NCBI RefSeq assembly: GCF_900188375.1
Contig: NZ_FZOO01000004.1
Location: forward strand, 62,001-126,000
Reading direction: 5' to 3'
From: Geodermatophilus pulveris
GTDB taxonomy: Bacteria; Actinomycetota; Actinomycetes; Mycobacteriales; Geodermatophilaceae
Length of the DNA: 64,000 nt
Shown: piece after piece, positions 37,656-63,300 of the stretch
How positions within the stretch are numbered: the stretch's first letter is position 1
How the letters are laid out: each line of letters starts with the position of its first letter
Notes under the pieces: generated by a model
Databases searched by the model: none
What the model saw: only the letters and a program-made list of their open reading frames with translations
Told to the model about the DNA's origin: nothing
Position numbers and translations under genes: made by a program

Positions 37656-38599
37656 CGCACCACCGCGCCCGGGGCGGTGGCGAGCACGGCGCGGCGGCGG
37701 TGCTGCTCGCGCTGCTCATGGTGCCGGTGCTCGGGTTCACCGCGATCGCCGTCGACGTCGGCGCCCTCTACGCCGAGCGCGCCCGGTTGCAGACGGCGGC
37801 CGACGCCGCGGCGCTGGCCGTCGCGGCCGACTGCGCCAAGGGCGCCTGCGGCGACATGCAGGCGACCGCGCAGGAGCTCGTCGACGCCAACCTCGGCGAC
37901 GCGGCCGCCGCCCCGCCCGTCCTGGCCACGAACCCGAACCGGGTCACCGTCGACGGCAGCACGCCGGTGGAGCACTGGTTCGCCCCGGTCATCGGCCAGG
38001 ACTCGACCGCCGTCTCGGCCACCGCCACGGTGGCCTGGGGCGGGCCGAGCGGGGGCACCGCCGTGCTGCCGCTGGCCTTCTCCTGGTGCGAGTTCTCCCA
38101 GCAGACCGGTGGTGGACTGCCGTCGAGCACGACGCAGCACACCGTCTACCTCACCAAGTCCTCGCAGACCGCCGACTGCACCGGACCGTCGGAGAACATC
38201 GTGCCCGGCGGGTTCGGCTACCTCGTCAGCGACGAGGGGGAGTGCCGCGCCTCCAGCGCGATCGCGGAACGGTCCTACTCCTCGACCGGCAACACGCCGC
38301 CGGCGGAGTGCTCGGCCGCCGACTTCGCCTCCTGGGTCGACCGCACGGTGCTGCTGCCGATCTTCGACGACTCCGGCGGCACGGGCAGCAACGCCTGGTA
38401 CCGGGTCTACGGCTACGCGGCCTTCCGGCTGACCGGCTACCACCTCGGCGGCCAGTTCAGCTCCTCGCCGAGGCCGTGCGACGGCAGCGCACGGTGCGTG
38501 ACCGGCTACTTCACCCGCTTCGTCGACCTCGGCGATGCCTTCGACTACGACGCCGGCGCCCCCCAGATGGGCGCCTGGGTCCTCCGACTGATCCGATAG
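37643..38599 (+). CDS. TadG-like pilus assembly protein, Cys-rich
   Basis: 318 residues from GTG 37643 (GTG 37652, forming GTGA with the tadE stop, is equally likely). N-terminal TadG/Flp-assembly segment: GEHGAAAVLLALLMVPVLGF, then VDVGALYAERARLQTAADAA. The extracytoplasmic remainder carries eight cysteines, suggesting up to four disulfides, and has aromatic-rich stretches (WYRVYGYAAFRLTGYHLGGQ). The von Willebrand domain of larger TadG proteins is missing. Likely envelope-anchored minor pilin or assembly factor. Confidence 0.88.
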   Translation: MQRVTHHRARGGGEHGAAAVLLALLMVPVLGFTAIAVDVGALYAERARLQTAADAAALAVAADCAKGACGDMQATAQELVDANLGDAAAAPPVLATNPNRVTVDGSTPVEHWFAPVIGQDSTAVSATATVAWGGPSGGTAVLPLAFSWCEFSQQTGGGLPSSTTQHTVYLTKSSQTADCTGPSENIVPGGFGYLVSDEGECRASSAIAERSYSSTGNTPPAECSAADFASWVDRTVLLPIFDDSGGTGSNAWYRVYGYAAFRLTGYHLGGQFSSSPRPCDGSARCVTGYFTRFVDLGDAFDYDAGAPQMGAWVLRLIR

Positions 38600-38608
38600 G
38601 GGCCCCTC

Positions 38609-39349
38609 GTGAGACGCCGACTGCTCGCCGCCACCACGGCGCTGCTGCTCACCGCCGCCGGCACCGTGGTGCTGCTGGCCTACGTCCGCGGCGCCGACGC
38701 CCGCGCGCTGGCGGGGGTGCAGACCGTGGACGTCCTGGTCGTCGACCGGCCCGTCGCCGAGGGGACACCCGCCGGGGAGCTGGCCGCCCTCGTCCGCACC
38801 GAGCAGGTGCCGGCCAAGGCCGCCGTCCCCGGCGGGGTGACCGACCTCGGCGACCTCGCCGGGCAGGTCGCCACCGCCGACCTGCAGCCCGGCGAGCAGC
38901 TGCTGGCCGCCCGCTTCGCCGCGCCGGAGGACCTCACCGCGCCCGGCACCGTCGCCGCGCCGGACGGCGCCGCCGAGGTGAGCCTGCTGCTGGAGCCGCA
39001 GCGCGCCGTCGGCGGCCGCCTGGCGGCCGGGGACACCGTCGGCGTGCACGTCTCCCTCGCCGACGGGAGGACCACCCACTCCGTCCTGCACGGCGTGCTG
39101 GTCACCCAGGTGCAGGGCGCCCCGGCGCCGGCACCGGACGCCGGCACGGCCGACACCGCCTCCTCCGGCGGCGCGGCCCCGACCGACAGCCTGCTGGTCA
39201 CCCTCGGGCTGCGTGCCGAGCAGGCCGAGGCCGTCGTCTTCGGCATGGAGCACGGCACCGTCTGGCTCTCCCTGGAGACCGACGGCACCGACCTCGGTGG
39301 CACCGAGGTCCTCACCCCCGGCAACGTCTACGAGAAGGACCTCTCATGA
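38609..39349 (+). CDS. cpaB: CpaB/RcpC-like pilus assembly protein (SAF domain)
   Basis: 246 residues from GTG 38609, 9 bp after the preceding stop. One N-terminal membrane helix (LLAATTALLLTAAGTVVLLA) is followed by a SAF domain: VLVVDRPVAEGTPAGELAAL and ATADLQPGEQLLAARFA. CpaB proteins work outside the membrane and may guide the pilus. The stop overlaps the start of tadZ by 4 bp (ATGA). Confidence 0.88.
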   Translation: MRRRLLAATTALLLTAAGTVVLLAYVRGADARALAGVQTVDVLVVDRPVAEGTPAGELAALVRTEQVPAKAAVPGGVTDLGDLAGQVATADLQPGEQLLAARFAAPEDLTAPGTVAAPDGAAEVSLLLEPQRAVGGRLAAGDTVGVHVSLADGRTTHSVLHGVLVTQVQGAPAPAPDAGTADTASSGGAAPTDSLLVTLGLRAEQAEAVVFGMEHGTVWLSLETDGTDLGGTEVLTPGNVYEKDLS

Positions 39350-40536
39350 GCCACGTGGTGCTCGGCGCAGCCGACGACGACCTCGTCCTGCGGGTCGAGG
39401 AGGCGACCGACGGCGACGTGCACGTGCTGCCGCCGGGCCGGCTGCCCGCCGACCCGGCCCGGCTGTTCGAGCAGCTGGTCGACGGCGAGCTGCCCGAGGT
39501 GCTGCTCATCGGCCCGCTGGCGCCGCCGCAGGAGGCGTTCGGGCTGGCCGCGCGGCTGGACGTGCAGTGCCCGGGCATCAGCGTCGTGCTGCTCGCCGAG
39601 CCGACCCGGGAGACGTGGCAGGAGGCCATGCGGGCCGGCGTCCGCGACCTGCTGGCGCCCACCGCCGACGTCGGTGAGCTGCGCGCCGCCGTGGAGCGCG
39701 CCGGCTCCACCGCGGCCGGGCGGCGGCGGGTGCTGCGGCCGGTCGAGGAGACCGCCCGCTACACCGGCCGGGTCATCACCGTGGCCTCCCCGAAGGGCGG
39801 CGTCGGCAAGACGACCGTGTCGGCCAACCTGGCCGTCGGGCTGACCGCGGCCGCGCCCCAGTCCACGGTGCTGGTCGACCTCGACGTGCAGTTCGGCGAC
39901 GTCGCCTCCGCGCTCGGCCTCACGCCGGAGTACGCGCTGCCCGACGTCGCCCACGGCCCCGCGGCCGAGGACACGATGGTGCTCAAGACCTTCCTCACCC
40001 AGCACCCCAGCGGCCTCTACGCCGTCTGCGGGGCGGAGTCCCCGGCCGCCGGCGACACCGTCACCGCCGCCGACGTCACCCGGCTGCTGGCCTCCCTGGC
40101 CCGGGAGTTCCGCTACGTGGTCGTCGACACCGCGCCCGGCCTGTCCGAGCAGACCCTCGCCGCGCTGGACCGGGCCACCGACGTGGTGATGGTGACCAGC
40201 ATGGACGTCCCCGGCGTGCGCGGGCTGCGCAAGGAGCTCGACGTGCTGCGCGAGCTGTGCATGATCCCGGCCGGCCGGCACGTGGTCATGAACCTCGCCG
40301 ACGCCAAGGGCGGGCCCTCGGTGCGCGACGTCGAGACCGCCATCGGCACCGGCGTGGACGTCGTGGTGCCGCGCTCGGCGGCGGTGCCGGCGTCGACCAA
40401 CCAGGGCGTGCCGATCCTGGCGTCCGGCCGCCGCGACCCGGCGGCCCGGGAGCTGCGCCGGCTGGTGTCCCGCTTCTCCGCGACCCCGATCGTGCGGCCC
40501 GGCCGCTACCGGGCCAAGCACCGGGCGGCCTCGTGA
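39346..40536 (+). CDS. tadZ: TadZ/CpaE-like MinD-family ATPase
   Basis: 396 residues from ATG 39346. Residues about 1-130 resemble a receiver-like domain (VLLIGPLAPPQEAFGLAARL). Residues about 140-396 are a ParA/MinD ATPase with deviant Walker A ASPKGGVGKTTVSANLAVGL at about 147 and VLVDLDVQFGDVASALGL. CpaE/TadZ positions the pilus machine at the cell pole or membrane. The long Arg-rich tail (GRYRAKHRAAS) is basic. Coupled to tadA by a 4-bp overlap. Confidence 0.92.
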   Translation: MSHVVLGAADDDLVLRVEEATDGDVHVLPPGRLPADPARLFEQLVDGELPEVLLIGPLAPPQEAFGLAARLDVQCPGISVVLLAEPTRETWQEAMRAGVRDLLAPTADVGELRAAVERAGSTAAGRRRVLRPVEETARYTGRVITVASPKGGVGKTTVSANLAVGLTAAAPQSTVLVDLDVQFGDVASALGLTPEYALPDVAHGPAAEDTMVLKTFLTQHPSGLYAVCGAESPAAGDTVTAADVTRLLASLAREFRYVVVDTAPGLSEQTLAALDRATDVVMVTSMDVPGVRGLRKELDVLRELCMIPAGRHVVMNLADAKGGPSVRDVETAIGTGVDVVVPRSAAVPASTNQGVPILASGRRDPAARELRRLVSRFSATPIVRPGRYRAKHRAAS

Positions 40537-41945
40537 ACCTCTCCTCCCGGCTGGCCGCCGCGCAGGGCCGCCCCGTGGCCCCGGAGGCCCCGGCGGTCCT
40601 GCCCGCCCCCCGGCCGGTGCCTGCGGCCCGTCCCGCGGCGGCCGCCGTCCCGCCGGCCGACGCGCTCGCCCGGCTCAAGGACCGCGTCGCCAAGGCGCTG
40701 TTCGAGCGCATGGGCAACCGGATGAACGACCCGTCGCTGTCGGAGGAGGCGCTGCGCACCGTCGTCCTCGGCGAGCTCGACGAGGTCGTCGAGGAGGAGA
40801 AGGTCCCGCTGTCGGCCGACGAGCGGGCCCGGCTGACCGCGGAGCTCGCCGACGACGTCCTCGGCTACGGCCCGCTGCAGCGGCTGCTCGACGACCCGAG
40901 CGTCACCGAGATCATGTGCAACGGCCCGGACGCCGTGTACGTCGAGCAGAGCGGCCGGCTGGTGCGCACCGCCGCCCGGTTCACCTCCGAGGAGCACCTG
41001 CGCCGGGTCATCGACCGGATCGTCTCCCGGGTGGGACGGCGGATCGACGAGTCCTCGCCGCTGGTCGACGCCCGGCTGGCCGACGGCTCCCGGGTCAACG
41101 CGATCATCCCGCCGCTGGCCTTCAGCGGCTCCACGCTGACCATCCGCAAGTTCGCCAAGGACCCGTTCGGCGTCGACGACCTGATCGGCTTCGGCACGCT
41201 GAGCCCGGAGATGGCCGAGCTGCTGCGCGCCTGCGTGCAGGCCCGGCTGAACATCATCGTCTCCGGCGGCACCGGCACCGGGAAGACGACGCTGCTCAAC
41301 GTGCTGTCCTCGTTCATCCCCGACGGCGAGCGGATCGTCACCATCGAGGACGCCGTCGAGCTGCAGCTGCAGCAGGACCACGTCGTCCGGCTGGAGTCCC
41401 GCCCGCCCAACATCGAGGGCAGGGGCGCGGTCACCATCCGGGACCTGGTCCGCAACTCGCTGCGGATGCGCCCCGACCGCATCGTGGTCGGGGAGTGCCG
41501 CGGCGGGGAGTCGCTGGACATGCTGCAGGCGATGAACACCGGCCACGACGGGTCGCTGTCCACGGTGCACGCCAACTCCCCGCGCGACGCGATCGCTCGG
41601 CTGGAGACCCTCGTCCTGATGGCCGGCATGGACCTGCCGCTGCGGGCCATCCGCGAGCAGATCGCCTCGGCCGTCGACGTCGTCGTCCAGCTGACCCGGC
41701 TGCGCGACGGCACCCGCCGGGTCACCCACGTGACGGAGGTGCAGGGCATGGAGGGCGAGACGGTCACCCTGCAGGACGCGTTCCTCTTCGACTACTCCGC
41801 CGGGGTGGACGCCGCCGGCCGCTTCCTCGGCGCGCCGGTGGCGACCGGGGTGCGGCCGCGGTTCACCGACCGCTTCGCCGAGCTCGGCATCACCGTCTCC
41901 CCGCGGGTCTTCGGGACGCCGGCGGCGCGGCGCGGGTGGGCGTGA
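40533..41945 (+). CDS. tadA: TadA/CpaF secretion ATPase
   Basis: 470 residues from GTG 40533. The motor ATPase of the Tad machine. N-terminal Ala/Pro-rich linker (10-45), then the N2 domain (VLGYGPLQRLLDDPSVTEIM), Walker A IIVSGGTGTGKTTLLNVLS near residue 244, Asp box IVTIEDAVELQL, Walker B RPDRIVVGECRGGESLDMLQ and the His box STVHANSPRDAIARLE. Cytoplasmic hexamer that pairs with TadB and TadC. All catalytic motifs intact. Confidence 0.96.
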   Translation: MNLSSRLAAAQGRPVAPEAPAVLPAPRPVPAARPAAAAVPPADALARLKDRVAKALFERMGNRMNDPSLSEEALRTVVLGELDEVVEEEKVPLSADERARLTAELADDVLGYGPLQRLLDDPSVTEIMCNGPDAVYVEQSGRLVRTAARFTSEEHLRRVIDRIVSRVGRRIDESSPLVDARLADGSRVNAIIPPLAFSGSTLTIRKFAKDPFGVDDLIGFGTLSPEMAELLRACVQARLNIIVSGGTGTGKTTLLNVLSSFIPDGERIVTIEDAVELQLQQDHVVRLESRPPNIEGRGAVTIRDLVRNSLRMRPDRIVVGECRGGESLDMLQAMNTGHDGSLSTVHANSPRDAIARLETLVLMAGMDLPLRAIREQIASAVDVVVQLTRLRDGTRRVTHVTEVQGMEGETVTLQDAFLFDYSAGVDAAGRFLGAPVATGVRPRFTDRFAELGITVSPRVFGTPAARRGWA

Positions 41946-42877
41946 TGCTGCTCGCCGTCGGGCTGCTCGCCATCGCCGGCGCCCTGCTGCTGGTCGCCCT
42001 CGTCGTCGTGCCCGCCGGTCCGCGCCGGGTGCCGCTGTCCCGCCTGGACCCGACCGTCGCGCCGCCGGCGTCGCCGCTGGCCGGCGCGTCGGCCGCGGCC
42101 GGAGCCGCGGTGGAGCGCGCGCTGGCCCGCCGCGGGCTGGTGGCCCGCGGCAGCGCCGCCCTGGAGCGGGCCGGGGTGGCCATGGCGCTGCCGGACGTCG
42201 TGCTGCTGGCCGGCCTGGCCGCCGTCGTGCTCGGCGTCCTCGGCCTGCTGCTCGGCGGGGTGCTGCTGGCCGTGCCGCTGGCCGTCGCCGTCCCGCTGGC
42301 CGCGCGGGTGGTGGTCCGGTTCCGCACCGGGCGCCGGCAGGCCGCCTTCGCCGACGCCCTCGACGACTCGCTGCAGCTGATGGCCTCCAGCCTGCGGGCC
42401 GGGCACAGCCTGCTGCGCGCGGTGGACGCGGTGTCCCAGGAGGCCGCGGCGCCGACGTCGGAGGAGTTCGCCCGCATCGTCAACGAGACGCGGGTGGGCC
42501 GCGACCTCGGCGACGCCCTGGACGAGGTCGCCGAGCGGATGGGCAGCGACGACTTCCGCTGGGTCGCCCAGGCGATCGGCATCCACCGCGAGGTCGGCGG
42601 CAACCTGGCCGAGGTCCTGGACACCGTCGGGCACACCATCCGCGAGCGCAACGCCATCCGCCGGCAGGTCAAGGCGCTGTCGGCCGAGGGCAAGCTGTCC
42701 GCGGTCGTGCTGATGAGCCTGCCGTTCGGCATCGTCGCGTTCCTCGCGGTGAGCAACCCCGCCTACCTGTCCGGGTTCACCGAGAGCCCGGTCGGCTGGG
42801 GCATGGTCGCGGCCGTCGTCGTGCTGCTCACCGTCGGCGGGCTGTGGCTGCGCGCGACGGTGCGGATCCGGTTCTGA
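41942..42877 (+). CDS. tadB: TadB inner-membrane platform protein
   Basis: 311 residues from GTG 41942 (ATG 41945 also possible). T2SSF-domain protein: helices at the N-terminus (residues 3-25 and 80-115), then the cytoplasmic DALDDSLQLMASSLRAGHSL and VAQAIGIHREVGGNLAEVLD, and two C-terminal helices. Works with TadC as platform for TadA. Overlaps tadC by one base (TGATG). Confidence 0.93.
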   Translation: MMLLAVGLLAIAGALLLVALVVVPAGPRRVPLSRLDPTVAPPASPLAGASAAAGAAVERALARRGLVARGSAALERAGVAMALPDVVLLAGLAAVVLGVLGLLLGGVLLAVPLAVAVPLAARVVVRFRTGRRQAAFADALDDSLQLMASSLRAGHSLLRAVDAVSQEAAAPTSEEFARIVNETRVGRDLGDALDEVAERMGSDDFRWVAQAIGIHREVGGNLAEVLDTVGHTIRERNAIRRQVKALSAEGKLSAVVLMSLPFGIVAFLAVSNPAYLSGFTESPVGWGMVAAVVVLLTVGGLWLRATVRIRF

Positions 42878-43767
42878 TGCTGCCCGCCCCCGTGCTGGCG
42901 GCCGCGCTGGCCGTCGCCCTCGCCGTCCCGCTGCTGGGCTGGGCGCTGCTGGCCCACCCGCAGGACGCCGCCGCCCGGACCCGGGAGAACCTGACCCGCG
43001 GCCTCGACCTGCCCGGCGCCGTCGCCGTCCCGGCCCGGGCCCGGCTGCTGCCCCGGCTGGCCCGCGCGCTCACCCCGGCCGGCACCGTGGCCCGGCTCAA
43101 CCGGCTGGCCGGCGCCGCCGGGCGCCCCGCCGAGTGGCCGCTGCCCCGGCTGGTCGCCGCCAAGCTGGTGCTGGGGCTGGTCGCCGCGGCGCTCGGCGTG
43201 CTGGTGGTCTCGGCCCGGCCCGGCCCGCTGACCGTGGTCATGGCCGTCGTCGTCACCGCCGTGGCCCACGTCGTGCCCGAGCTGCTGCTGTACAGCCGCG
43301 GGCAGGAGCGGCAGCAGGCGATCGCGCTGGAGCTGGCCGACACCCTCGACCAGATGACCATCGCGGTGGAGGCCGGACTCGGCTTCGAGGCCGCGATGGC
43401 CCGTGCCGGGCGCAACGGCCGCGGCCCGCTCGCCGAGGAGCTGGTGCGCACGCTGCAGGACATCGCCGTCGGCCAGCCCCGCCGGGAGGCCTACCTGGCG
43501 CTGGCCGACCGGACCGCGGTGCCGGACCTGCGCCGGTTCATCCGCGCGGTCGTGCAGGCCGACGCGTACGGCGTCTCGATCGCCGACGTGCTGCGCACGC
43601 AGGCGGCCGAGATGCGGCTCAAGCGGCGGCAGCGGGCCGAGGAGAAGGCGATGCAGATCCCGGTCAAGGTGATCTTCCCGCTGATCCTGTGCATCCTGCC
43701 GACGCTGTTCATCGTGCTGCTCGGCCCGGCCGCCCTCGACATCGCCGGGGCCTTCGGCGGGCAGTGA
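42877..43767 (+). CDS. tadC: TadC inner-membrane platform protein
   Basis: 296 residues from ATG 42877. Second T2SSF-domain platform protein: ELADTLDQMTIAVEAGLGFE and AVVQADAYGVSIADVLRTQA, C-terminal helix VKVIFPLILCILPTLFIVLL. Last gene of the Tad locus. It ends 11 bp from the convergent stop of the stressosome operon. No secretin or TadD-type gene is present, as expected for a Gram-positive Tad system. Confidence 0.93.
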   Translation: MLPAPVLAAALAVALAVPLLGWALLAHPQDAAARTRENLTRGLDLPGAVAVPARARLLPRLARALTPAGTVARLNRLAGAAGRPAEWPLPRLVAAKLVLGLVAAALGVLVVSARPGPLTVVMAVVVTAVAHVVPELLLYSRGQERQQAIALELADTLDQMTIAVEAGLGFEAAMARAGRNGRGPLAEELVRTLQDIAVGQPRREAYLALADRTAVPDLRRFIRAVVQADAYGVSIADVLRTQAAEMRLKRRQRAEEKAMQIPVKVIFPLILCILPTLFIVLLGPAALDIAGAFGGQ

Positions 43768-43778
43768 GACGTCGTCGG

Positions 43779-44063
43779 TCAGGGGTGCAGCGGACGACGG
43801 ACCATGTCGTGACTGGCCAGGACCTCGACGAGGAAGTCCGACGCCGCCCGCGCCACCTCGGGCACCTCGTCGGCAGGGCAGTCCTGCAGCACCTCGAGGA
43901 GCAGGTCGTGGTGCACGCGGACGATGTCCAGCAGGCTCAGCGCCGTGCCCAGGGTGCCGCGGCCCAGGGACCAGCCGGCGGCGAGCGCGGACTCCCCCGG
44001 GCGGGCCAGGTACCGCAGGAACGCGGCGCGGTAGTTGCGGCGCAGGTCGGCCTCCGCACTCAT
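43779..44063 (-). CDS. Stand-alone RsbU N-terminal (RsbT-binding) domain protein
   Basis: 94 residues from ATG 44063. The sequence RRNYRAAFLRYLARPGESAL, then LSLLDIVRVHHDLLLEVLQD and ASDFLVEVLASHDM, is the four-helix N-terminal domain of RsbU phosphatases, the part that RsbT binds in Bacillus. The PP2C phosphatase domain is completely absent; the gene ends cleanly at 43779 and nothing resembling PP2C follows. Fourth gene of the stressosome operon, overlapping rsbS by 4 bp. I infer a binding partner for the RsbT domain of the sigma fusion, perhaps as antagonist or adaptor. Confidence 0.8.
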   Translation of the reverse strand: MSAEADLRRNYRAAFLRYLARPGESALAAGWSLGRGTLGTALSLLDIVRVHHDLLLEVLQDCPADEVPEVARAASDFLVEVLASHDMVRRPLHP

Positions 44064-44449
44064 GGCCGCTGCGCCGTGGGGTCACGCGCGCCCCGGTCCA
44101 GCTCCGCCAGTCCCTCCTCCAGGTCCAGTGCGGTGACCACCCGGCCGGTGTCCATGCCCAGCTGGACCATGGCGAACGCGACGTCCGGTTGGATCCCGAC
44201 GATCACGGTCACCGCCCCGCGCAGCCGGGCCATCTCGGCCATGTCCCGCAGCGTCCGGGAGGCGAAGGAGTCCAGGACGTCGAGGGCGGCCACGTCGATG
44301 ACCACCCCGCGTGCCCGGTCGGAGCCGATCCGTTCCACGAGGTCGTTCTGGAAGCGCACCAGCTGGGAGTCGTCCAGGGCGGTGTGGACGGACGCGATCA
44401 GGTACGGGCCCTGCCGCAGGATCGAGAACAGCCGCGGGCCGTCGTTCAC
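44060..44449 (-). CDS. rsbS: RsbS-type STAS stressosome scaffold
   Basis: 129 residues from ATG 44449. A single STAS domain close to B. subtilis RsbS: RQGPYLIASVHTALDDSQL, then VVIDVAALDVLDSFASRTLR with Ser61 at the position phosphorylated by RsbT (DSF motif), and VIVGIQPDVAFAMVQLGMD. RsbS and RsbR form the stressosome core. Longer by about ten residues at the C-terminus than typical. Overlaps rsbR and the RsbU-N gene by 4 bp each. Confidence 0.92.
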   Translation of the reverse strand: MNDGPRLFSILRQGPYLIASVHTALDDSQLVRFQNDLVERIGSDRARGVVIDVAALDVLDSFASRTLRDMAEMARLRGAVTVIVGIQPDVAFAMVQLGMDTGRVVTALDLEEGLAELDRGARDPTAQRP

Positions 44450-45351
44450 GGCCCACCGTTCCCGTCCTCACGGGAGACCGCGTACCCCAGCAGCCGCTCG
44501 GCCTCCTCGAGGCCGCCCTGCAGGTCGCCGATGGTGTTCATCTTCGACAGGTCGACACCGATGGTGACCAGCGTCTGGGCGATCTCCGGGGACAGCCCGG
44601 TGATGATCACGCTGGCACCCATGAGCCGCGAGGCGTCGACCGTCCGCACCAGGTGGTTCGCGACGGACTCGTCGACGTCCGGGACGCCGGTGATGTCGAC
44701 GACGACGACCTTGGCCCGGTGGGTCCGGATGCCGCTGAGCAGCTGCACCGTCAGCTGCCGGGCCCGCTCCCGGTCGAGCACCCCGATGATCGGCAGGATC
44801 AGCAGCCGCTCACGGACCGGCAGCACCGGGGTCGACAGCTCGCGGATGGAGTCCTGCTGCTGCCGGATGACCCGCTCGCGCTCCTCCACGAAGGAGACGG
44901 CCACGGTGTTGGCGATGCGGTTGGCCGCCGGCTCGTAGGCGTCGAGCACCCGGTTGAGCAACGCGAAGTCGCGCTGGTACTTCTCGAACAGCGACCTGGC
45001 GAGGACGTCGCGCAGCAGGAGCACGATGCCGACGACCTCGTGGGTCTCCACGCCCCGCGGGATGATCCGCTCGGAGAGGTCGCGGGCGTAGTGCTGCAGT
45101 GCCTCCACGCTGCCGGTCTCCAGGACCTCGACGTAGTTGTCGTAGACGAGCGTGGTCTCGGCGGACATCTCCTGAGCGGTCATCGCCTGCAGGAGGTGCG
45201 CCTCCCGGATGCGGCCGACCCACTCCTGACGGAGCCGGGTGCGGTGCTCCCGCAGGTGCGCCACCAGCTGCGGGAGGAGGTCCTCCTCGTCGAGGGCGCG
45301 CGGGGGGCCCGTCGGAGCCACGGTCGCGCTCGGGTCCTCGTACCTGGTCAT
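44446..45351 (-). CDS. rsbR: RsbR-type stressosome sensor
   Basis: 301 residues from ATG 45351. N-terminal helical sensor region (about 25-165, non-haem globin-like RsbR fold: REHRTRLRQEWVGRIREAHL, IVLLLRDVLARSLFEKYQRD) and a C-terminal STAS domain (about 180-290: VVVVDITGVPDVDESVANHL, VIITGLSPEIAQTLVTIGVD). In B. subtilis RsbRA two Thr in the STAS domain are phosphorylated by RsbT; by eye those positions are Arg (in VLDRERAR) and Glu (in DVDESVA) here. Overlaps the sigma-RsbT gene by 4 bp. Confidence 0.9.
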   Translation of the reverse strand: MTRYEDPSATVAPTGPPRALDEEDLLPQLVAHLREHRTRLRQEWVGRIREAHLLQAMTAQEMSAETTLVYDNYVEVLETGSVEALQHYARDLSERIIPRGVETHEVVGIVLLLRDVLARSLFEKYQRDFALLNRVLDAYEPAANRIANTVAVSFVEERERVIRQQQDSIRELSTPVLPVRERLLILPIIGVLDRERARQLTVQLLSGIRTHRAKVVVVDITGVPDVDESVANHLVRTVDASRLMGASVIITGLSPEIAQTLVTIGVDLSKMNTIGDLQGGLEEAERLLGYAVSREDGNGGP

Positions 45352-46493
45352 GCCTCTCCCCGCCACCTCGTCATCGTCACCGTCGTGCCGCGGCCGATCT
45401 CGGAGACCACCGCGAACTCGTCCATCAGCCGCCGTGCGCCCGGCAGCCCCAGCCCAAGCCCCCGGTAGGTGCTGTAGCCGTCCTGCAGCGCCTGTTCGAC
45501 GTCCGGGATCCCGGGGCCCGCGTCGCGGGCGACGATGGAGATCCCCGTCCTCGGCTCCTGCAGCTCCGCGACGACCACCTCGCCGGAGTCGGCGAAGCGC
45601 ACGATGTTGCGGGTCATCTCCGACACCGCCGTGGCGATCAGCGTGACGTCGGTGGCGGAGAACCCCAGCCGGGTCGCCACCTCCCGGGCGGCCTGCCGGG
45701 CGGCCACGACGTCGGCATCGGTGCGCACGGCGACGCGCACCGCGTCGTCCCGGGAGCGCCCGCGTCCCATGAGGGGCTCGGAGAGTCGCGCGCACAGGTC
45801 GCACTCCAGCATGTGGCGGGCGGCGTCGACCTCCCGTTGGCGACGGCGGTCGCCGCCGGAGATGGCGAGCAGCACCGGACGGCAGCGCTCCGTGGGCGGC
45901 TCCGCCCGCTCGGAGACGAGCAGGTACTCCACCCGCAACCGGGCGCGGGTGCGGTTGAGCTGGGCGGCCACCGCACCGGCGGTGGAGCCGAGCTCGGCCG
46001 CCAGCGACCGGGTGTCCTGACCGGACACCTCGTGGGCCAGCAGCGTCGTCCGCTCGCGGTCGGAGAGCCGGGTCAGTGCCTCCGCGACGGCGGTGCGGTC
46101 CTCGCGGGCGAGGACGTCCTCGTCGGGCGCCTGCGGAGGCCGCAGGTCGACGACGCGGTGCTGGTGCCGTCGCTGTCGGTCCTGGTCCCGCCACATCGAG
46201 GCGACCGTGTTGCGCGCCGTCACGATCGCGTAGGGCTCCAGCAGCCCCGGCTCCACGCGGCCGGCGGCGGCGAGGACCCGGGTCAGCGTCTCCTGGACCA
46301 GGTCGTCGGCGGTCGCCGGATCGGGGACGCGGGACGCGACGATCCGCCGGACCAGCGGGATGAGCGCTGCGACGTCCGCAGATCCGCGGTCGCCTGCCCC
46401 GCTCTCCACCGGCTCGCCGGACACCACCCGCGAGACGGTACGCCCGGGGACCCGGATGACCCCGCTCCCTGGACGCCCTCGCCTCCCCCGCAT
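45348..46493 (-). CDS. ECF-like sigma factor fused to HC2 zinc-finger motif and RsbT kinase domain
   Basis: 381 residues from ATG 46493; no good ribosome site, and GTG codons near residue 23 are alternatives. Residues about 41-108 are sigma region 2 (ADDLVQETLTRVLAAAGRVE, AIVTARNTVASMWRDQDR); 131-192 are region 4 (LTRLSDRERTTLLAHEVSG, LAAELGSTAGAVAAQLNRTR). Residues 204-234 hold Cys204, His227, Cys231 and Cys234 in the C-x22-H-x3-C-x2-C spacing of zinc-binding anti-sigma domains. Residues about 251-378 are an RsbT-type GHKL kinase: N box AVSEMTRNIVRFAD, G1 DAGPGI, G2 GLGLGLPGARRLMDEF. First gene of the stressosome operon. I infer that the kinase domain binds the RsbR-RsbS core and so ties the sigma factor to it. 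Confidence 0.88.
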   Translation of the reverse strand: MRGRRGRPGSGVIRVPGRTVSRVVSGEPVESGAGDRGSADVAALIPLVRRIVASRVPDPATADDLVQETLTRVLAAAGRVEPGLLEPYAIVTARNTVASMWRDQDRQRRHQHRVVDLRPPQAPDEDVLAREDRTAVAEALTRLSDRERTTLLAHEVSGQDTRSLAAELGSTAGAVAAQLNRTRARLRVEYLLVSERAEPPTERCRPVLLAISGGDRRRQREVDAARHMLECDLCARLSEPLMGRGRSRDDAVRVAVRTDADVVAARQAAREVATRLGFSATDVTLIATAVSEMTRNIVRFADSGEVVVAELQEPRTGISIVARDAGPGIPDVEQALQDGYSTYRGLGLGLPGARRLMDEFAVVSEIGRGTTVTMTRWRGEA

Positions 46494-46728
46494 GACGAGG
46501 AGGCCGGGGATCGCGTCGGCCGGCCCCGCCGACGCGCCGGGACGCGGGGACCCCGTCCGGGCAGCGACGACACCGGACCGGAACGGGGAGGAGGGACCCG
46601 GCCGGGCCGGTCGTCCGCCCGGGCGGGCTCGTCATCCGCCCGGGAGGGCGACGTCTTCACGGGTGCGGTGCCGTACTCCCTCCGGCCAGAGGCGCCGGGC
46701 CGGCACACGAGCAAGGAGGCTCCCCCTG

Positions 46729-47019
46729 ATGAACACATGGGCACGCAAGGCCGTCGTCCCCGTCTTCGCCGCCGCCGCCGTGGTGGCCGCTGCCACCCCC
46801 GCCGCCGCACAGCAGCAGGACGGCCTGGTCAACGTCGCCGTGGGCGACGTGACGGTCCTCGAGGAGGTCAGCATCGGGGTGGCGGCCCAGCTCGCGGCCC
46901 AGGTGTGCGGTGTCGACGTCGGGCCGGTCGCCGTCCTCGGCACGGCCGTGGACCGCAGTGGCGCCGACCGCACCGTCTGCGAGAGCGACCAGGGGGACGT
47001 GGTGCTCACCCAGAACTGA
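46729..47019 (+). CDS. Small secreted protein, function unknown
   Basis: 96 residues from ATG 46729, with a near-perfect AAGGAGG ribosome site. A Sec signal peptide is evident: WARKAVVPVFAAAAVVAAAT, cleavage after PAAA or so, giving a mature chain of about 68 residues. The mature part has two Cys (in AQVCGVDVG and TVCESDQG) that could form one disulfide, and repeats of the type VNVAVGDVTVLEEVSIGV. The family is familiar from related actinomycetes but uncharacterised. Divergent from the sigma-RsbT operon with 235 bp between the starts; a good candidate target of that sigma factor (inference). Confidence 0.78.
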   Translation: MNTWARKAVVPVFAAAAVVAAATPAAAQQQDGLVNVAVGDVTVLEEVSIGVAAQLAAQVCGVDVGPVAVLGTAVDRSGADRTVCESDQGDVVLTQN

Positions 47020-60331: not shown

Positions 60332-63300
60332 CCGCCGGCGCACCGGAGGTCCCCCGACGGGCCGTCGTCCGGCTGGTGCGCTTCGGCTTCGTCGACGGCG
60401 AGCGGGCCGCCCGGCTGCTGTCCGAGCCCGCGATGGGACTGTGGGACCTCGAGCGCAACGAGCCGGCCGACCCCGAGGCCGGCCCGGTCGTGGCGGCCGT
60501 CGCCCGCACCGGCGACCCCGACCTCGCCGTCCGGTCGCTGCGCCGGCTGGTGGAGGCGCTGGACGCCGCCGACCCCACCGGCGGCTCGGCCGCCGCCCTG
60601 CTCGCCCGGCTGCGCGGATCGGCGCTGCTGCGCTCCCGGCTGCTCGCCGTCCTCGGCGCCAGCTCCGGCCTCGCCGACCACCTGGCCGCCCACCCCGCCG
60701 ACTGGGCCGTCCTCGACGACGACGACGGCCGCGGCCCCGCCCGGCCCACCCCGCAGGCGCTGCAGCGGCAGATGCTCGCCGCCGTCGGCGCCGACCCCGA
60801 CGACCCGCCGTGGGGCGTGCGGCTGGGCCGCGGCGCGCCGGACGCCTCCCCCCAGCGGGTCGCCGGCCTGCGGGAGGCCTACCGCCGCGCGGTGCTGTCC
60901 CTGGCCGGCCGCGACCTCGGCGAGGGCCTGCCCGCCGAGGACGTCGCCGCCGAGCTCGCCGACGTCGCCGCCGCCGTGCTGACCGCCGGCCTGGCCGTCG
61001 CGGTCGCCGAGCAACCCGCCGACGCCGCCGCCTGCCGGCTGGCCGTCATCGGGCTGGGCAAGTGCGGCGGCCGGGAGCTCAACTACGTCAGCGACGTCGA
61101 CGTGGTCTTCGTCGCCGAGCCGGTCGACCCCGCGGACGCCGACCCCGCGCCCGCGCTGCGCAGCGCCACCCGGGTCGCCGCGGCGCTCATGCGCGTCTGC
61201 CGCGAGGCGGCCTGGGAGGTCGACGCGGCGCTGCGCCCCGAGGGGAAGGCCGGCGCGCTGGTCCGGACCCTGCACGGGCACGCCGCCTACTACCGGCAGT
61301 GGGCCAGCACCTGGGAGTTCCAGGCGCTGCTGAAGATGCGCCCGGTCGCCGGCGACCCCGACCTCGGCCGCGCCTACGTCGAGGAGCTGTTCCCCCTGGT
61401 GTGGCAGGCCGGCGAGCGGCCGGGCTTCGTCGCCGAGGTGCAGGCGATGCGCCGCCGGGTCCTGGACAACATCCCGCCCGCGCAGGCCGAGCGCGAGCTC
61501 AAGCTGGGCCGCGGCGGGCTGCGCGACGTGGAGTTCGCCGTCCAGCTGCTGCAGCTGGTGCACGGCCGGGTGGACGTGCGGCTCAGGGTCGGGGGGACCC
61601 TCCCCGGGCTGCACGCGCTGCGCGCCGGCGGGTACGTCGGCCGCGCCGACGCCGACACGCTGATCGCCTCCTACCGCTTCCTGCGCACCGTGGAGCACCG
61701 GCTGCAGCTGCTCCGGCTGCGCCGCACCCACCTGCTGCCCACCGACGACGCCCAGCTGCGCTGGCTGGCCCGCTCGCTGGGCTACAAGCCCGACCACCGG
61801 GGCGACGCGGTCGCCGTCCTGGACGCGGAGCTGTCCCTGCACACCCGCGAGGTGCGCCGGCTGCACGAGAAGCTCTTCTACCGGCCGCTGCTGTCGGCGG
61901 TGGCCAAGGTGCCGCCGGAGGCCGCGCAGCTGGGCTCGAAGGCCGCCGGCGACTGGCTGCGCGCGCTCGGCTTCGCCGACCCCGACGGGGCGCTGCGGCA
62001 CATGGCCGCGCTCACCGGCGGGGTGTCCCGGTCGGCGTCGATGCAGAAGTACCTGCTGCCGGTGGTGCTGCAGACCCTCGCCGACTGCGCCGACCCCGAC
62101 GCCGGCCTGCTGGCCTACCGCCGGGTGAGCGAGGCCCTCGGCGGCAACCAGTGGTACCTGCGGCTGCTGCGCGACGAGGGGCAGGTCGCCGAGCGGCTGG
62201 CCCAGCTGCTGGGCTCCAGCCAGTACGTCGCCGCGCTGCTCACCCGCACCCCCGAGGCGCTGCGGATCCTCGCCGACGACGAGCAGCTGCGCCCGCGCAC
62301 CGCCGAGGCGCTGACCCGGGCGTGGGGTCAGGCCGCCGGGCGGGCCCCGGACCCCGCCGCCGGCGTGCGCGTGCTGCGCGGGCTGCGCCGGCACGAGTTG
62401 CTGCGGGTGGCCGCCGCCGACCTGCTCGGCATGCTCGACGTCGCGCAGGTCGGCCGGGCGCTCACCGACATCGCCGTCGCGGTGCTGCAGGTCGGCCTGG
62501 ACGTCGCCGTGCGCGCGCACGCCGCCGAGGCGGGCACCGCTCCCGGTGACCTGCCCACCGACGTCGCCGTCATCGGCATGGGCCGCCTCGGCGGCGGGGA
62601 GATGGCCTACGGCTCGGACGCCGACGTGCTGTTCGTGCACCGGCCTCGGCCGGGTGCGGACGACGCGCGGGCGACCGCGGCGGCCAACGCGGTGGCGCAC
62701 ACGCTGCGCCGGCTGCTCGGCGAGCCGGCCCCCGACCCGGCCTTCGCCGTCGACGCCGACCTGCGGCCGGAGGGCCGGCAGGGTCCGCTGGTGCGCAGCC
62801 TGGACTCCTACCGGGAGTACTACGAGCGCTGGATGTCGGTGTGGGAGGTGCAGGCGCTGCTGCGCGCCGTCCCGGTCGCCGGCGACGAGGCCCTCGGGAC
62901 GGCGTTCACCGAGCTGGCCGACCCGATCCGCTACCCGGCCGCCGGGCTCACCCCCGAGCAGGTCGCCGAGATCCGCCGGATCAAGGCCCGGGTGGAGCGC
63001 GAGCGGTTGCCCCGCGGCGCGGACCCGACCACGCACACCAAGCTCGGCCGCGGGGGGCTCTCCGACGTCGAGTGGACCGTGCAGCTGCTGCAGCTGCAGC
63101 ACGCCGCCGGGCGCCCCGGGCTGCAGGTGACGTCCACCGTCGCCGCCCTGCAGGAGCTGCGCGAGGCGGGGCTGCTCGACGGGGACCAGGCGGAGACCCT
63201 GCAGCGGGCGTGGGAGCTGGCCGGCCGCGCCCGCAACGCGGTCTTCCTGGTGCGCGGGCGGCCCAGCGACCAGCTGCCCCGCCCCGGCGTGGAGCTGGCC

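Follow-up and report, generated by a model that had tools for sequence, protein, structure and literature searches.

The window analysed here is a 64,000-nucleotide stretch of contig NZ_FZOO01000004.1 of Geodermatophilus pulveris (positions 62,001 to 126,000 of the forward strand). On its minus strand it carries a gene, referred to here as sigT, in which an extracytoplasmic function (ECF) type sigma factor, a zinc-binding-like block and an RsbT-like switch kinase are joined in a single protein. This gene is followed by genes for RsbR-like and RsbS-like proteins and for a lone RsbU N-terminal domain (RsbU_N), and these four genes are called the cassette; a gene for a small secreted protein lies beside it on the opposite strand (Table 1). 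The occurrence of a sigma factor and an RsbT-like kinase in one gene had been reported, with no strand given, in a preliminary description of the window, and this observation is confirmed.

The Sigma70_r2, Sigma70_r4_2 and HATPase_c_2 matches of sigT all passed their curated Pfam cut-offs, and the sigma70-ECF model TIGR02937 of NCBIfam also matched over its cut-off (3.7e-20), so that the sigma regions do not score as noise. Regions 2 and 4 are the only sigma regions in the protein, which is ECF-like by Pfam, by TIGR02937 and by Foldseek similarity to SigL, SigE, SigH and AlgU. The predicted structure (mean predicted local distance difference test score, pLDDT, of 78; predicted template modelling score, pTM, of 0.40) has well-defined sigma helices and a GHKL fold, and comparison of the model with the PDB placed SpoIIAB first, with RsbW and the four sigma factors lower. 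Between the two parts lie the cysteine and histidine residues that had been described as having HC2 spacing. Residues C204, H227, C231 and C234 were unchanged in 27/27 aligned relatives, although the Pfam scan gave no zf-HC2 match in sigT itself; this profile did score downstream of sigma region 4 in three of five distant sigma relatives scanned. The counts refer to a 27-row alignment, as an earlier one of 38 rows held one 11-residue scrap. Helices are predicted across the block (residues 204–241). The kinase had been called complete, and the eight residues tested (E292, N296, D324, G326, G328, G345, G347 and G349) were likewise invariant in the 27 relatives. Residues R19, R23 and N24 of Bacillus RsbT presumably correspond to R266, R270 and E271 of sigT. 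The ratio of nonsynonymous to synonymous differences (pN/pS) was 0.08–0.41 across the sigma regions, zinc block and kinase in comparisons with eight relatives, while a ninth, distant comparison with Knoellia gave 0.45–0.80 and was close to saturation; judged by these ratios, both sigma regions are under purifying selection.

Table 1. Features of the sigT cassette and its surroundings in the window (positions are those of the window)
Feature	Position	Strand	Basis or remark
Lone RsbU N-terminal domain gene, 94 aa, without phosphatase	43779..44063	minus	PF08673, 5e-15; four-helix model
rsbS-like gene, single STAS, phospho-serine position kept	44060..44449	minus	Pfam, alignment
rsbR-like gene, 301 aa	44446..45351	minus	STAS; RsbRD_N-like N-terminus at 22.8 bits, just under the cut-off of 24.3
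sigT, sigma-HC2-RsbT fusion gene	45348..46427	minus	Likely 359 aa, GTG start at 46427
Mechanical open reading frame (ORF) of sigT	45348-46493	minus	381 aa
RsbT-like GHKL kinase domain, ORF residues 259-375	45369..45719	minus	PF13581, 5e-14; SpoIIAB fold, 8e-7; tree
Cys204-His227-Cys231-Cys234 block, zinc-binding anti-sigma-like (HC2 pattern)	45792..45884	minus	Invariant, 27/27
Sigma-70 region 4, ORF residues 135-186	45936..46091	minus	Pfam PF08281, 2e-6
Sigma-70 region 2, ORF residues 42-106	46176..46370	minus	Pfam PF04542, 3e-12; Foldseek to ECF sigma structures
TACCGT, -10-like box of leaderless type	46435..46440	minus	7 nt before conserved sigT start codon; 37-locus alignment
Promoter-like site CGTCAT-N17-GTCC upstream of sigT	46468..46497	minus	Motif searches
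Promoter-like site CGTCAT-N17-GTCTTCA before secreted-protein gene	46630..46659	plus	Motif searches
Small secreted-protein gene, family A, 96 aa; candidate target and fifth cassette member	46729..47019	plus	Signal-peptide-like start by eye

The order sigT, RsbR, RsbS and RsbU_N on one strand was found in 40 of 43 distinct full-length fusions, and the operons of the remaining three (L049, L045 and L055) are interrupted by contig ends; a genome survey had been proposed in the preliminary description, and both rsbR and rsbS indeed follow the fusion wherever the contig allows. An ordinary sigma factor (L002), two loci with the gene in three frames (L031 and L053) and a fragment (G070) were dropped from the alignments and counts. 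By profiles and operon position, an RsbR with a STAS domain, a single-STAS RsbS and an RsbT GHKL kinase are thus encoded together, and RsbS and RsbR matched chains of solved stressosome structures (2e-25 and 2e-34, respectively). The RsbS phospho-serine, located by alignment to Listeria RsbS and lying in a DSF motif, was present in 37/37 distinct proteins; we take it to correspond to S59 of Bacillus, and the RsbR phospho-threonines of Bacillus to be T171 and T205. In the same number of RsbR proteins the T205 position is occupied by Glu in 33, Gln in three and Ala in one (Glu and His in the further loci L056 and L057), and the T171 position by Ser in 15, Arg in 13, Thr in two, Gly in two, Gln in one and Ala in one, with three unread. 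An additional RsbS-like STAS gene, 70% identical, was seen after the cassette in one locus (L051, 10444-10794).

The fourth gene was missed by the preliminary description, which had proposed that the pathway skips RsbU; what has been lost is the phosphatase part. As this gene is incomplete in many of the fetched stretches, its end was assessed in the window and in 31 other distinct loci. The domain is followed there by no more than 39 residues, and the SpoIIE/PP2C domain of an RsbU phosphatase is absent. The lone RsbU_N is the sole PF08673 match in this genome, which thus yielded no RsbU phosphatase with such a domain. Its model consists of four helices (pLDDT 84.5). A phmmer comparison with the RsbU N domain gave 0.009, and Foldseek returned 2j6y/1w53 only at E-values of 0.3–0.5, behind KaiA, with nothing at 0.001. 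The equivalent of E24 of Bacillus RsbU was unchanged in 20/20 aligned proteins. In Bacillus this residue is a reported RsbT contact, and a change at Y28 abolishes RsbT binding (PMC12143880). Neither an RsbV nor an RsbW gene lies within the cassette.

Upstream regions of the small secreted-protein genes were seen by eye to have the sequence CGTCAT/C-N17-GTCTTCA in common. When CGTCAT-Nk-GTC(C/T) was counted up to 1 kb from the cassette at 39 loci, a spacing of 17 gave 56 sites in 35 loci, against 0–2 sites for every other spacing between 10 and 24. The far flanks of these loci, 4.5-fold longer, held six sites at this spacing, and 200 single-base shuffles gave a mean of 0.18 sites and never more than three. 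The 56 sites fall into 44 groups by their differing surrounding bases. At N17 the motif was not found in 12 stretches of family f2, which we take to be mycobacterial (10 genomes, with two stretches overlapping others), nor in 14 other RsbT loci without a sigma domain. Across 112 Geodermatophilaceae genomes the exact pattern with spacing free between 16 and 18 gave 147 matches against 16 for the reversed control; the N16 matches were set aside since they resemble coding sequence, for example the repeated CGTCACCGACGAGCC. Among 29 exact N17 matches in these genomes, 18 lay no more than 2.5 kb from sigT and were spread over 18 of the 29 genomes with the whole fusion, with four others elsewhere in fusion genomes and seven in genomes lacking the whole fusion. 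The value of 1.6e-50 obtained for this clustering ignores both common descent and the choice of pattern after about ten loci, and three genomes (G000, G051 and G029) belong both to the pattern-defining loci and to these 18 matches. In the genome of G. pulveris seven relaxed matches were found, two being the divergent pair between sigT and the secreted-protein gene, and the reversed control gave none. Of the five further matches, four are within long open frames and none has the look of a clear promoter, though one (L215) precedes a possible gene start. A GGAAC-type ECF promoter was also sought with two patterns in 13 upstream regions and nothing was found. A GTCAT-like −35 and a CGTC-like −10 presumably resemble those of ECF promoters, and from its link to the cassette we infer CGTCAT-N17-GTC(C/T) as a candidate promoter for the sigma factor of sigT.

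The coding region had been taken to begin at the ATG at 46493, but sigT probably starts at the GTG at 46427. This ATG was rejected as the operon start since it falls within the promoter-like site, the conserved start codon being further in, and a conserved TANNNT box is located seven nucleotides before that codon. The box suggests a second, ordinary promoter for sigT. As the CGTCAT motif stands directly before sigT in only 5/39 loci, self-regulation is not universal.

The whole fusion was found in 29 of the 112 family genomes (in three of these the match extends over stop codons ahead of the likely start), with a broken copy in G017 and a fragment in G070. The named carriers (22 loci) include Geodermatophilus, Modestobacter, Blastococcus, Trujillonella, Segeticoccus and Knoellia, together with metagenome-assembled genomes labelled Nocardioidaceae, Nocardioides and Propionibacteriaceae. 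Among 394 genomes sampled from the class, three had a full-length fusion in addition to that of the window, and in a sample of 396 from the phylum two genomes, from one family outside the class, had the whole four-gene operon. RsbU_N occurred in 14 of the 394 class genomes, with ten from family f2 (long proteins), three with the fusion and one orphan. In G017 (Blastococcus sp. TML/M2B; L031 and L053) the fusion gene lies in three frames, representing a pseudogene or sequencing errors, and rsbR and rsbS (in L053 rsbU_N too) still match along their full length. A short extra piece resembling sigT residues 166-219 was seen just before the whole copy in L043 (549-710) and is a possible duplication remnant.

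In the kinase tree the fusions cluster together (support 94/88), with a single origin in 92% of bootstrap trees, and their neighbour is the standalone RsbT of family f2. In the latter operons R, S and T are followed by a gap and then an RsbU that has PAS, SpoIIE and HATPase domains, as seen in one protein scanned in full and five in part. The sigma-zinc halves of the fusions also group together (85/77), with long branches present. Ten relatives (L058, L059, L073, L161 and L163-L168) carry the sigma-zinc module with a different C-terminus, by eye a hydrophobic stretch and an outer part in place of RsbT. In three that were compared with the window, the module was 36–43% identical with a CRPVL-x-A-x-S signature; no RsbR or RsbS match was found beside these proteins in the stretches searched, and five that were scanned had no Pfam match beyond sigma. 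Their loci (ten loci, 69,016 bases) held two CGTCAT motifs at N17 and three at N16. A PADEGFW-like motif was seen by eye in the outer part, and a PRC-barrel-like gene, also identified by eye, adjoins the gene in L058, L059 and L073. In the simplest history suggested by these trees and relatives, a membrane-type sigma-zinc module would have gained the RsbT of an f2-like operon, with RsbU trimmed to its RsbT-binding part. In other actinobacterial RsbT loci (L070-L082) a second, weaker kinase-like match was observed straight after the first.

The best reading of the cassette, to which we give a probability of about two in three, is that the ECF sigma factor is held by the stressosome and that the kinase set free is this very protein; each binding, phosphorylation and transcription step below is inferred. 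RsbR and RsbS would build the stressosome core, and the RsbT domain of the fusion would dock on RsbS and so tether the attached sigma factor. The zinc block, placed between these two parts, would serve as a built-in anti-sigma clamp. That the sigma factor docks on a core of RsbR and RsbS had been proposed before and is the natural reading, because the kinase is RsbT-like, RsbR and RsbS follow wherever the contig allows and the RsbS serine is conserved throughout. When stress is sensed by RsbR, the kinase domain would phosphorylate this serine and leave the core. It had been proposed that this step alone frees an active sigma factor, which is too simple since a protein likely to bind the kinase domain after release has been conserved as well; overall the earlier interpretation is partly supported. 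The freed fusion would then be bound at its kinase domain by the lone RsbU_N, which may pair two fusion proteins and open the clamp. Free sigma factor would direct RNA polymerase to the CGTCAT-N17-GTC(C/T) promoters beside the cassette, with small secreted-protein genes as the chief putative targets and, in several Geodermatophilus, the operon itself. With somewhat less confidence, the cassette is read as a portable and complete module in which the released kinase is the sigma factor, RsbU is cut down to a partner, and promoters and a secreted output gene are included, so that release could take a single step with no relay through phosphatase, anti-anti-sigma and anti-sigma factors.

A number of observations weigh against this reading. 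The motif was first spotted by eye in about ten loci and tested afterwards, and the loci are kin by descent. Four of the 39 loci lack it (L160 and L162 from another class, L205 and L206 from the same genus), and in the window alone its count is unremarkable, being reached by 6/100 shuffles with one mismatch allowed. The cassette RsbR proteins do not show the T171/T205 pattern of Bacillus. The Glu at the second position and the mixed residues at the first indicate that these proteins are regulated differently from Bacillus RsbR; Ser is found at the second position in 9/10 RsbR proteins of family f2. T205 phosphorylation in Bacillus is thought to inhibit signalling at extreme stress (PMC3944199), and by analogy a fixed charge at this position may set a damped baseline. 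Position 28 of RsbU_N varies between proteins, with Ala in that of the window, and the lone domain has no linker of the kind that additionally contacts RsbT in Bacillus. No RsbX-like resetting phosphatase was found in the cassette, though the genome has 12 SpoIIE matches elsewhere. One genome (G355; L123 and L127) has an orphan RsbU_N in a 209-aa frame with no fusion nearby. Finally, the sigT model gives no placement of the zinc block on the sigma part, as would be wanted for the clamp. It should also be noted that an RsbU of family f2, inspected by eye, lacks Y28 too, and that one motif-less cassette from another class retains a secreted-protein gene.

The alternative that survives best concerns RsbU_N, which could be an antagonist whose dimer captures the released fusion and keeps it idle, giving two holding stations and a sigma factor that fires once both are exhausted or RsbU_N is removed. 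RsbT binding is a described role of this domain, and no effector domain accompanies it where the gene end is visible; in described systems, however, RsbU_N binding activates the partner (PMC12143880), and given the absence of an effector next to RsbU_N, activation of the RsbT side is an equally good fit. Since the binding mode of Bacillus RsbU orders dimers (PMC12143880), we lean towards a helper, which is favoured over a domain that merely soaks up the fusion, and the antagonist is retained as a tentative second choice.

It is less probable that a different sigma factor or regulator reads the CGTCAT-N17-GTC signal and that the fusion works elsewhere. The four motif-less loci would agree with another reader, yet the motif stands beside the cassette in all the remaining loci with mostly differing surroundings, is rare elsewhere in the genome and is missing at N17 from the mycobacterial-type and other RsbT stretches. 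Slightly more doubtful still is a zinc block that serves as a redox or metal sensor, with the stressosome arm only setting a baseline. RsrA is an example of a redox-sensing zinc anti-sigma factor. The invariant ligands and the existence of such factors (PMC8999054) would suit a sensor, but the block is also kept where an apparent membrane anchor replaces RsbT, and so looks like a common clamp and not an input.

A sigma part that is a mimic as in PhyR, titrating another anti-sigma factor and starting no transcription, is very improbable. PhyR provides a precedent (PMC8999054) and PhyR_sigma2 matched sigT weakly and under its cut-off (E-value 0.031), but intact regions 2 and 4 score as an ordinary sigma-70/ECF factor under purifying selection, a promoter-like motif is tied to the cassette and no separate anti-sigma gene is among the four. 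A sequencing error or chance joining of neighbouring genes, for which nothing speaks in the window although G017 (L053) does have its gene in three frames, is ruled out by conservation of the whole fusion in the family, in other families and in a second class, at the head of the same operon.

The closest known systems include the mycobacterial-type loci, with orthologues of RsbR (E-value about 1e-160), RsbS and RsbT, but in these loci RsbT is a separate protein without a sigma factor and RsbU retains its phosphatase. The stressosome operon of Mycobacterium marinum is described as rsbR-rsbS-rsbT-rsbX-rsbUW (PMC8115616). The RsbRST-RsbU-RsbV-RsbW-SigB pathway of Bacillus and Listeria shares the stressosome parts, the RsbS serine and RsbU_N as the RsbT partner; it differs in that Sigma-B is held by RsbW far downstream, whereas the ECF sigma factor of the cassette is on the switch kinase itself, and in the second phospho-threonine of RsbR. 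In ECF52 (SCO4117), as in further ECF sigma factors bearing a zinc finger at the C-terminus, the sigma factor and zinc block likewise share one chain, but ECF52 goes on to membrane helices, a proline-rich part and a carbohydrate-binding module (PMC5826349) where sigT continues into RsbT. The PhyR-NepR-EcfG system likewise has a sigma-like domain fused to a signalling domain and uses partner switching; PhyR, however, is a mimic attached to a receiver and belongs to Alphaproteobacteria (PMC8999054), and such partners are not among the four genes of the cassette.

No description of a sigma-RsbT fusion was found in the titles and abstract openings of the open PMC literature among the matches listed, nor any mention in the available parts of PMC8999054, PMC8103513, PMC8115616, PMC5826349 and PMC9237108; an earlier mention in ECF or stressosome surveys is possible. 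Stressosome outputs through RsbT include phosphatases, cyclic-di-GMP enzymes and two-component proteins (PMC9237108). If the reading is correct, joining the sigma factor to RsbT would give a route shorter than any of these, with stress turning genes on in one step and not by the usual relay. Parts may also have been swapped between a sigma module of membrane type and a cytosolic stress hub. The fusion would also make it easier to study RsbT release after RsbS phosphorylation, the effect of RsbU_N on RsbT and zinc gating of an ECF sigma factor, with release readable by a reporter because the output would be transcription from a defined promoter.

Geodermatophilaceae include desert and rock-surface actinomycetes, and for that reason it would be of interest if stress controlled their surface proteins. 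Family A, to which the secreted protein of the window belongs, was found in 14 of the 112 genomes. Thirteen of these matches are beside a whole or broken cassette (two being weak, 8e-5 and 4e-4) and the fourteenth, also weak (5e-4), is on another contig. Small secreted-protein genes recur beside cassettes, with family A in several lineages and an unrelated family B elsewhere. The chaplin profile ChpA-C (PF03777) matched a similarly placed protein in L193 above its cut-off (2.5e-5) and another in L046 under it (0.007), and did not match the secreted protein of the window; "chaplin-like" is therefore a lead. Tad/Flp pilus-like genes, identified by eye, converge on the cassette from the plus strand of the window (38086-43767); these were rejected as partners since, among the matches listed, flanks differ between loci except for the secreted-protein genes and between close species. 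The gene after the motif in L048 was confirmed by Pfam as PRC-barrel/DUF2382, and in L039, L189 and L193 a motif site facing away from the secreted-protein gene or its motif precedes an esterase/lipase-like gene (supported by Pfam in L193 alone).

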